The notes beneath the pieces were generated by a model. It was not told where the DNA came from, searched no databases, and saw only the letters and a program-made list of their open reading frames with translations. Made by a program: the position numbers and the translations under genes. Below, piece by piece: positions 9,295 to 47,462 of a DNA stretch of 64,000 nucleotides; within the stretch, counting starts at the first letter, position 1, and the number at the start of each line of letters is the position of its first letter. This DNA is from Salvelinus alpinus (Eukaryota > Chordata > Actinopteri > Salmoniformes > Salmonidae), in NCBI RefSeq assembly GCF_045679555.1, contig NC_092100.1:36418106-36482105 (forward strand), written 5' to 3'.

Positions 9295-9488
9295 GGAGTT
9301 TCTTCTCCTGGAGACAGGGTTCCTGTATGTGCTCATCGCCCCATTGAAGTCTGTACCAGGGTGGTTGTGGGGCAGAGAGCATGACCATGTGACCCTCAGG
9401 TTGATCTGCTAGCTGCTTTTCAGAATGATGTTCGCCTCCGGAGTCCTCAAACTCACATCACACTGCCCTACCTGGTGGGGCCTCACAG
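9295..9488 (+). pseudogene. lmf2: LMF2 (lipase maturation factor 2) single-exon relic
   Basis: A 194-bp exon with a preserved CCAG acceptor and GT donor reads EFLLLETGFLYVLIAPLKS ... [27 protein letters not shown] ... [13 protein letters not shown]2, an ER membrane lipase chaperone relative, has the closely similar [25 protein letters not shown] here. The conserved Trp codon (expected TGG) is TAG, an in-frame stop near 9411. No other LMF2 exon is visible on either side, and transposons abut it, so I call a dead remnant. Strand and position relative to MIOX and PPP6R2 match the mammalian gene order. Confidence 0.85.
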
Positions 9489-9615
9489 GTAGCAGTGTAC
9501 GGATCTCTCTCTATCCCTGATGTACTCCTAAGACTCAGTGTATCGCTATGCCCCTGGCCTGTGTACGTGTCTCTCTAATGTGGTTGTATGTATTTATCGC
9601 TCTATCCCTGATGTA

Positions 9616-44700: not shown

Positions 44701-47462
44701 ACCCACACACTCCTGCCTGCAGGAACACACAGGGCAGAGGATATTACAGGTGTTTGTGTTTGTGTGTGTGTGTGTGTGTGTGTGTGTGTAAGTGTGACTT
44801 ACGACTCCAGCACGGCAAGCAGAGGGTCAGCCTCAGAGTTCTCTTGGAGTTGATTGGCCTGGTCTCTGCTCAGACGGATGATGTCACACACAGTCTGGGA
44901 TGCATTTGACTGTTTCTGAAACACACACACGGCTGGAGTTACCCCGCTGACAGCACTCTCTAGTCATCAGTAGAGTGTGTGTGTGTCGGTCTTACCTCCT
45001 CGTCTTTCCCAGGGTGGATGAGCTCTATAAGCCTCTGGGCCAGCTGCTCTTCATTTAACCACTGCAGAGGGAACACAAACACACACTATTACATACTTTA
45101 CCACACACTGAGGATGTGTGTGTGTGTGTGTGTGTCGTACGTTGAGTGTGTCCTGTCTGAGAGGAGCAGGCTCTACACAGCTGATGAGGCGTAGCAGGAG
45201 GTCCATCATGGCTGATGTGTTGATGTGATTCAGGACCAGACCTAGGAAACCCTCCTTTCCCCGCAGAAAGGAGATCACCTACAGAGACCACAACACAACC
45301 ACCTGTCAACCAGATCATCTAAAGACCAAAATAAATGACCATACAACAATATAGGCTACAACAACATCATACAACAAAATGATTACAACCAATATTATCT
45401 ACCCAAGTAGGGCCCTATAAAATCTGTTTTATTTTTGCCTCATTCAGTTTAGTTTTTCCGAGGTTTCCATTTTTCCCAGTTTTCACTCTCAAAATCAAAC
45501 TTTTTATAGAAAAACAACAAAATTGGATGTTCTAAGTCCATAACGATGCTTAAAACACATCAGGAGACCACTCTGGGTCAGTTGTGGGACAATAGTTCCC
45601 AAAATCATATAACCTGTAGGACTAGGCTACATACCAGTCAAAAGTTTGGACACAACTACTCATTCAAGGGTTTTTATTTATTTTTACACTGTAGAATAAT
45701 AGTGAAGACATCAAAACTATGAAATAACACAAATGGAATCATGTAGTAACCAAAGAAAGTATTAAACAAATCAAAATATATTTTCAAGTAGCCATCCTTG
45801 CTTTGATGACAACTTTGCCAAGAGTGTGCAAAGCTGTCATCAAGGCAAAGGGTGGCTACTTTGAAGAATCTCAAATATAATTTGATTTGTTTAACACTTT
45901 TTTGGTTACTACATGATTCCATTTGTGTTATTTCATCGTTTTGATGTCTTCACTATTAATCTACAATGTAGAAAATAATACAAATAAAGAAAAACACTGG
46001 AATGAGTAGGTGTGTCCAAACTTTTCCCTGGTACTATATAGATATAAAAAAATGTTAAGCAATGATGAATAAGTTTTATTTCGCAATAGGATTTTTTTCT
46101 TCTCCCGGGCAATTGGACGGTACCAATTTATCGGCTTATCAATAAAACATTTTAAATGTTTTACGGCCAGTAGCCGGCTAACGGAAGTCCTGGTGCGCAC
46201 ACACACACACACACACACACGCCATTTCAGAAAGTTGCAGGAAAATACGAATAACTGATGCATTTTCTAATAAGATCAATACATTTAGTTGATTTCCTAC
46301 TAAGTGCAATACATTTTGAATATTGTTGAATTCTGTTTTAATGTCTGGATTCCGTGCGCATTTTCCACAACACAGATTTTATAGGGCTCTACACTAGAGA
46401 GGAAACCTTCCTTCTTCTGCAGAAAATGAATCACCGCCACAATGAAACTACAACACAACCAGAATAAAATGATCAACTGTGTGAGAGTTGGTGTTACTGT
46501 ACCTGTTCGGTCTTGCGTGTGATGAGGTTTCCGATGGTCTTGCTGAAGAAGGACGCAAGAAGGGGGTTGAGGGGAGGGGGCTGCTCCAGGAAAGAGTACA
46601 GGGTATCCAGCAGGGGCTTCTCTCCACCCAGCTTATCATTTATCACCCCCACATCACTCGTCAGCAGCTCACACGCTATGTTAGGGTGCCTGGAACACAC
46701 ACACACACTCAGCAAAGTATCCCACTGACTGACTGACTGACAGACAGTGTGTGTGTCTCTCTACTCCTCTTGGCCCCCAAAGTTTTCTGAGCAAAAATAA
46801 AAAATAATAACAAATAGATTTTTTAATTGTTGGACATAAGACTAAAAACACCAGGAAATCACCTCCAAGTGATTTAATTTTGGAAATCAGTTCTCAAGTA
46901 TTCCCACGCATAATAGAGAGATGTGATCATATACAAAAGTAAGCAAGGTTTGAAATGATTATGTTTTAGTCAAATGTTATCTCTGTTTGGGCTTATTGCG
47001 GTCAATTTGCCATCTATAAATTATTTGTAATTATGTTCCTGCCCCCCAACCACCCGCTCGAGAAACAATCGGCCCGCGGCTGAATCTAGTTGATGATCCC
47101 TAGTCCACTCACTTAAAACGTCTTGTTTCTTCCAGGCCAGCAGGGGGCTCTGTGGTGATGAGGTGCAGCAGCTCCTGCATGCAGGTGTCCTGGGACAGGA
47201 AGACAAGCAGCCTTGGGCCCAGAGAGGAGTGAAGAGACACTCATTAGCATGACACCATTTCCTATTCGAAATGCTCAAACTAATGCTAATAAACAGTGTG
47301 CTTTCTATGGCAGATGTTAATGCTGAAGGATAACCTGCGGTTCTGGGCCTTGCACTCCTGCAGTACGTCCTCCTCCTCCATGAGCTCAGTGAGCGTGACA
47401 TCATCCTTCTCCAGCAGGGCCTCCAGCTGGGACGACATGTGCAGGTCAAACTTCCAGAACAT
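35760..47462 (-). CDS. ppp6r2: PPP6R2 (protein phosphatase 6 regulatory subunit 2, SAPS family), 23 coding exons
   Basis: Exons in order: 47335-47462 (ATG), 47113-47211, 46503-46689, 45141-45278, 44996-45061, 44803-44915, 44603-44716, 41844-41964, 41488-41679, 41175-41399, 41024-41088, 40756-40871, 40576-40661, 40418-40495, 40217-40314, 40069-40123, 39802-39926, 39330-39535, 38796-39153, 38526-38611, 38204-38426, 37927-37950, 35760-35880 (TAA). The lengths sum to 3,024 nt, so all phases close and give 1,007 aa, near family size. SAPS subunits hold the PP6 catalytic subunit and link it to ankyrin subunits. Diagnostic stretches: [92 protein letters not shown]6R2 rather than R1 or R3 is favoured mainly by the neighbouring MIOX and LMF2 relics. 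Odd points: a 14-residue DPWGSP repeat in the exon 38796-39153 and an [15 protein letters not shown] insertion in the exon 41488-41679. Confidence 0.94.
35977..37318 (-). mobile_element. Tc1-like transposon with partly open transposase
   Basis: TA flanks CAGTGCATTCTGAAAGTATT and the complementary right end (AATGCACTG before 37318). A minus-strand frame at 36570-36980 reads [51 protein letters not shown]: the paired DNA-binding domain and GRPR-like hook of Tc1 transposases. The frame is lost before the catalytic domain. It lies in the last PPP6R2 intron. Confidence 0.93.
37569..37790 (+). mobile_element. tRNA-derived SINE with a non-HpaI body
   Basis: The head (GGTGGCAGGTAGACTAGCGA, GAGCCAGTAACCGAAAGGTC, CTGGTTCGAATACCTGAGCC) carries A- and B-box-like sequences. 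The 3' part (AAGCAAGGCATTTAACCCTA, ATATGCGACAATAAA) differs from HpaI. It is a salmonid tRNA-derived SINE of another subfamily. Confidence 0.8.
38616..38729. repeat. (CA)56 microsatellite abutting a PPP6R2 exon
   Basis: An uninterrupted AC dinucleotide run of about 112 bp. On the transcribed strand it is (GT)n followed by ATTCAG and the exon at 38611. Confidence 0.95.
38849..39100 (-). repeat. ppp6r2: Coding 42-bp repeat in PPP6R2 (six [10 protein letters not shown] units)
   Basis: Six consecutive 14-residue units read [70 protein letters not shown] and [14 protein letters not shown]. The frame is kept across all units. The first four units retain DPW; the last two carry DSW and DAW. Confidence 0.95.
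39584..39768. repeat. Intronic minisatellite with palindromic TGGTCCTGGACCAG
   Basis: Units of about 18 and 25 bp built on GTGTCGTATTCTGGTCCTGG with an optional ACCAG alternate between 39584 and 39768, in the PPP6R2 intron between exons 39330-39535 and 39802-39926. Confidence 0.9.
42130..43561. other. PPP6R2 intron, GCTAGC-rich, unclassified
   Basis: The stretch 42510-43410 is rich in GCTAGC, TAGCTA and AACGTTAGC motifs, characteristic of old salmonid interspersed repeats. No coding exon is seen and no termini could be defined. Confidence 0.4.
43562..44246 (+). repeat. Interspersed repeat, copy A of an inverted pair
   Basis: Matches 55884-56562 in reverse complement over about 680 bp, from CTACACCGCGAGCGTTGCAA to TTTGGGTTCCGTGTAA. 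Shared landmarks include CTCCCATCTCCTCATTGGTT, ATTAATTGTCGGAGTAGAGG and AGCTAGCAAGTGCAAGCTAG. The family is not classified here. Confidence 0.85.
45631..46036. mobile_element. Internally deleted Tc1-like element, about 406 bp
   Basis: Left end ATACCAGTCAAAAGTTTGGA and right end TCCAAACTTTTCCCTGGTAC are inverted. The internal order (CTACTCATTCAAGGGTTTTT ... AAAGGGTGGCTACTTTGAAG) corresponds to the two ends of the element at 9616 with the transposase removed. It lies in a PPP6R2 intron. Confidence 0.88.

Follow-up and report, generated by a model that had tools for sequence, protein, structure and literature searches.

In Lien et al. 2016 (PMC8127823), 55% of the duplicates from the salmonid genome duplication (Ss4R) are given as kept in two copies, 56% of the 9,162 salmon singletons are reported to have a pseudogenised fragment where one would expect it, and pseudogenisation, stressed over fractionation, is named as the main route of duplicate loss. 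In human, the gene order at 22q13.33 is PPP6R2, SBF1, ADM2, MIOX, LMF2 and NCAPH2 according to Table 1 of PMC9224546. Among the papers listed, two treat MIOX, LMF2 and PPP6R2 together, both of them on human 22q13 or neurodevelopmental cases, and no paper on the locus described below was found among the best-ranked literature. This locus lies in a stretch of 64,000 nucleotides (C15:36418106-36482105), hereafter the window, which was searched together with the whole of its own genome (2,367,770,401 bases in 928 contigs). The following features were recognized in the window:

1239..1537, + strand, 3' exons of C2CD5 with the fifth YbjQ-like domain, with a counterpart on C9
7735..9161, strand not assigned, interspersed repeats, beginning immediately past a 34-nt match to sequence 5' of LMF2 exon 1
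9295..9488, + strand, LMF2 relic, one whole exon with a PF06762 match, AG/GT splice sites and a premature TAG
9530..9559, + strand, candidate remnant of the following LMF2 exon, ten codons long (KTQCIAMPLA; C9 has ETQCIPTPLA)
17386..17622, - strand, MIOX relic, last two coding exons, with matches to PF05153 and to MIOX in PDB and with lesions relative to C9
25285..26652, - strand, gene for a MOB2-like kinase activator, frames open exon by exon
38215..47480, - strand, PPP6R2, 20 exon stretches compared with C9
48994..57333, + strand, DNAJA2, exons spanning the initial methionine through the final residues, with a counterpart on C9

The corresponding genes on C9 are:

C9:30681586-30694377, + strand, PPP6R2, from exon matches
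C9:30765323-30767183, + strand, MIOX, from exon matches
C9:30781997-30768292, - strand, LMF2, from exon matches
near C9:30796.6 kb, - strand, C2CD5, from a genome match

Two of these features are remains of genes. The Pfam profile search covered frames of positions 1-10000 and 50500-60500 on the + strand and of 1-10000 and 16500-60500 on the - strand. In one search, with stops read as X, two of six translations matched, namely one of the three frames of 9001-9900 (+), with the lipase maturation factor family PF06762 (E 3.4e-15), and one of the three frames of 16500-20501 (-), with the MIOX family PF05153 (E 5.5e-13). The borders of the LMF2 relic are those of an exon (AG before 9295, GT after 9488); it has no indel, and its premature TAG lies at 9410-9412, where C9 has TGG. 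It shares 83% DNA identity and 74% protein identity (62 residues) with the C9 LMF2 exon, 60% and 61% protein identity with the copies on C11 and C37, respectively, and a match of just 20 residues with the LMF1-like copy on C3. Judged by these comparisons, in which it is nearer to the C9 gene than to the LMF1-like copy, the relic is LMF2 and not LMF1; the C9 gene itself is named LMF2 from its match to human LMF2. A PDB search with this exon returned chance hits and nothing else.

Upstream of the LMF2 relic, the 34-nt match that precedes the repeats starting at about 7735 ends, on C9, 107 nt before the LMF2 start codon. Downstream, the stretch between the two relics (9499-16762), which on C9 holds the rest of LMF2, has one short match in place (9504-9563), the others being repeat-like; 49% of this stretch has a match in the C9 block, and 27% has matches at three places or more. 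The piece at 9530-9559 is tentatively regarded as a remnant of the next LMF2 exon, an argument from position, as its match alone has an E of 1.0. Directly after the relic lies the remnant of a transposable element (9614-11089) with 93-nt inverted arms, which we take to be Tc1-like. Among the matches listed, one of the 11 LMF2 exon peptides from C9 has a window match at E < 0.001, and two of the seven MIOX exon peptides do so. When the whole human LMF2 and MIOX proteins were used as queries, the window gave, beyond the relics, weak or low-complexity matches (lowest listed E 0.018).

The MIOX relic aligns through the last residue of the human (E 1.3e-10) and mouse (E 4e-10) MIOX enzymes in PDB. 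Compared with C9, (i) its first acceptor is gone together with 18 nt, (ii) 24 nt of coding sequence are deleted, (iii) a premature TAG stands at 17559-17557 in place of TGG and (iv) the intron is shortened, its donor being kept and the second acceptor gone. A genome search for MIOX gave six matches, namely five exon matches at C9:30765786-30767183 and the C15 relic, and none on C11 or C37. The C9 exon that was listed with a TAG is itself open, the stop preceding the open frame of the exon.

The gene beyond the MIOX relic, PPP6R2, has its start at 47462 (-). Its 20 exon stretches contain no stop, and the codon count shows a single in-frame gap of 3 nt between them and those of C9. Among the PPP6R family, it scored 637 bits with PPP6R2, 499 with PPP6R1 and 548 with PPP6R3, in a rough comparison with bits summed from overlapping pieces; by these scores the gene appears nearest to PPP6R2, with an open frame in the examined exons. 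A PDB search with one of its exons gave no match. Its coding sequence includes a 42-bp tandem repeat (window 38855-39102, -) with a 14-residue unit present in about six units, and seven in the C9 copy; as both copies have it, this repeat probably predates the C9/C15 split. The first-pass annotation, made from the letters of the window, had read an LMF2 exon relic (+), a C-terminal MIOX relic (-) and an intact PPP6R2 (-) at these places, and the profile, PDB and exon comparisons bear out all three.

The same annotation had predicted a paralogous block with intact LMF2 and MIOX and a second PPP6R2, and such a block was found on C9 (30.66-30.80 Mb), inverted. When the window was aligned with the partner region C9:30660001-30860000, a collinear, inverted counterpart was recovered, extending between C2CD5 (at 30804 kb) and the DNAJA2 region (at 30660 kb). 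The best inverted chain comprises 45 pieces and 23,049 aligned positions, with 78.6% mean identity and 19,503 bits, including probable interspersed repeats (e.g. the pieces at 13977, 14150, 19391 and 29209-30454); the chain in direct orientation reaches 5,852 bits, and 20 position shuffles give at most 10,060 bits. C2CD5 matches in the genome search were confined to C9 and C15, and the C9 copies of LMF2 and MIOX, read exon by exon, are open. The relative strands of PPP6R2, MIOX and LMF2 on C9 are the same as those in human. Separately, the window contains a minisatellite at 22893-23518 (27-bp unit, 23 copies, 97% matches), which is open in a frame on either strand, and further arrays at 32576-33165, 33378-34026 and 455-856, with units of 19, 26 and 26 bp, respectively.

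Because C9 holds a collinear inverted copy with open PPP6R2, MIOX and LMF2, the relics are almost certainly unprocessed pseudogenes left by a genome duplication, the window being one member of a homeologous pair of blocks that arose when the whole genome was doubled. The alignable non-coding DNA and the pairing of the chromosomes make it very probable that this doubling was the salmonid Ss4R.

The protein-coding comparisons are consistent with this reading. With the C11 copy as outgroup, 10 LMF2 amino-acid changes are specific to the relic and 2 to C9 (64 sites); for MIOX, with human as outgroup and three gap placements, 9 to 13 are specific to the relic and 0 to C9 (57 to 60 sites). Constraint thus appears relaxed on the relic lineage, where these changes pile up. 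The dN/dS ratio between C15 and C9 is 0.42 for the LMF2 relic (bootstrap 0.22-0.90), 0.30 for one MIOX exon and 0.36 for the other (bootstrap for both combined 0.13-0.85, a range that takes in the PPP6R2 value), 0.38 for both relics together (121 codons, bootstrap 0.21-0.61) and 0.18 for PPP6R2 (672 codons). The contrast between the relics and PPP6R2 is modest, in the expected direction and of small size: 13 of 400 random 121-codon subsets of PPP6R2 reached 0.38. With the PPP6R2 ratio standing for copies that are alive, the deaths would date very roughly to the midpoint between the duplication and the present, the uncertainty being almost as wide as the full range.

A further question is whether the surviving pieces persist because they gained a new use, such as that of a regulatory element or of a non-coding transcript. 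The LMF2 exon, which has no indel and retains its two splice sites while its neighbours are gone, would suit such a use, but the identity of the LMF2 stretch (78.4%) and of the MIOX stretch (65.9%), set against the chain mean, gives no excess likeness over the neighbouring DNA, and the amino-acid changes concentrate on the relic side; a new use is therefore very unlikely. It is also highly improbable that the C15 genes are really whole and were misread, misassembled or seen in the allele of a single individual: the data do come from one assembly of one individual, but each gene has several independent lesions, most exons are gone and substitutions are spread along the relics. The arrival of the relics by chance as retrocopies or local segmental duplicates is likewise highly improbable. 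The small part left of each gene is what partial copies would leave, but the LMF2 exon is still flanked by intron sequence and splice sites, such remains also persist between the MIOX exons, and each relic is collinear with its whole C9 copy, flanking non-coding DNA included; a retrocopy origin is ruled out by these retained introns and collinear flanks.

A single deletion of both genes was considered separately and rejected, since DNA from both flanks of each relic remains, and since MIOX lost its 5' part and LMF2 the exons on either side of the surviving one. These differing patterns of loss, together with the flanks still present, suggest that more than one event was needed.

Two more regions resembling 22q13.33 form a pair of their own, at C11:32.66-35.83 Mb and C37:9.23-12.42 Mb, with matches to PPP6R2, the SBF family, NCAPH2 and LMF2. 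The PPP6R-family genes form three pairs in the genome (27 matches): C15:36.46/C9:30.68, C11:32.66/C37:12.42 and C15:23.44/C9:42.94. Against reference sequences, the C11 copy, the one scored of its pair, is nearest to PPP6R2 (484 bits vs 344 and 348), and the C15:23.44 copy, likewise the one scored of its pair, is nearest to PPP6R3 (535 vs 405 and 395). SBF-family exons adjoin the PPP6R2 copies of C11 and C37 (C11:32.69, C37:12.39), the other SBF pair being on C5/C33, and their place suggests that these genes are SBF1. NCAPH2 was found at C11:34.98/C37:10.00 and LMF2-like exons at C11:35.83/C37:9.23; the genome searches for SBF and NCAPH2 listed none on C9 or C15. MIOX now occupies a single place in the genome, and PPP6R2-like genes occupy four. 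Most simply, C11/C37 and C9/C15 would derive from two copies of one ancestral 22q13.33-like block, presumably made by the teleost duplication Ts3R, each re-split by Ss4R. That LMF2 and MIOX died as early as Ts3R, which would make the C9-C15 pairing irrelevant to their loss, is extremely improbable: the second PPP6R2 block does mean that an older duplication touched the region, but the LMF2 relic is nearer to C9 than to C11/C37 in the identities given above, and after decay from Ts3R onwards little of a relic should still be legible.

Between the MIOX relic and PPP6R2, the window carries a further gene, absent from the first-pass annotation's finding on this block, which is MOB2-like and gave MOB1 family matches in a PDB search. 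Of the three exon peptides of this gene, one has a match on C9 (C9:30708697-30708810), which contains a stop and lacks the 5' part, and a sensitive DNA search of C9 found three short pieces. A search for MOB across the genome (28 matches, with 46 candidates scored) listed the gene of the window but no match near C9:30.7 Mb. The loss is reciprocal: LMF2 and MIOX are broken on C15, and the MOB2-like gene is broken on C9. The earlier proposal of differential loss, with functional LMF2 and MIOX on the ohnologous chromosome, holds in that both genes are open on C9, and is incomplete in that MOB was lost there and LMF2 also exists on C11/C37. Of the six genes seen in the block, PPP6R2, DNAJA2 and C2CD5 (in the window, its 3' exons only) are on both chromosomes, LMF2 and MIOX are dead on C15 and the MOB2-like gene on C9, and remains of each of the three lost copies can still be read.

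The course of events proposed for Ss4R is as follows. Whole-genome duplication would have made the C9 and C15 blocks, leaving one copy each of LMF2 and MIOX redundant. On C15, both would then have taken up nonsense changes, deletions and splice-site losses, probably by neutral decay, until most exons had vanished, with repeats partly in their place. On C9, they would have stayed open while the MOB2-like copy was lost, and PPP6R2 and DNAJA2, and C2CD5 as far as seen, would have been retained on both chromosomes. The open copies are presumably the expressed ones. For annotation, the matches to LMF2 and MIOX on C15 should not be taken for genes.

LMF2 and MIOX were resolved in one direction and MOB in the other, atop an older opposite resolution (SBF-family and NCAPH2 on C11/C37, MIOX on C9/C15). 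That this makes the block a locus of divergent resolution is unlikely. If other salmonid lineages had resolved these pairs otherwise, crosses between the lineages would lack single-copy genes such as MIOX, and the block would offer a specific place at which divergent resolution following a genome duplication could be tested.

With respect to the known systems, the locus resembles the Ss4R cases of Lien et al. 2016, with gene fragments at the expected homeologous place and whole copies on the partner. It differs from the emphasis of that study in that the dead C15 genes are largely gone and that both directions of loss occur within one 64-kb stretch. Like human 22q13.33 in Table 1 of PMC9224546, it has PPP6R2, MIOX and LMF2 in that order, with open exons on C9 and, for the last two, as relics on C15. 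Unlike the human region, SBF-family genes and NCAPH2 are on C11/C37, with none listed on C9/C15, and MOB, C2CD5 and DNAJA2 are the neighbours in the C9/C15 block. The locus fits the Ss4R pseudogenisation picture and is not a new kind but a well resolved example of it: an ordinary but very clear case, compact and at base level, of a doubled vertebrate genome going back to single copies.
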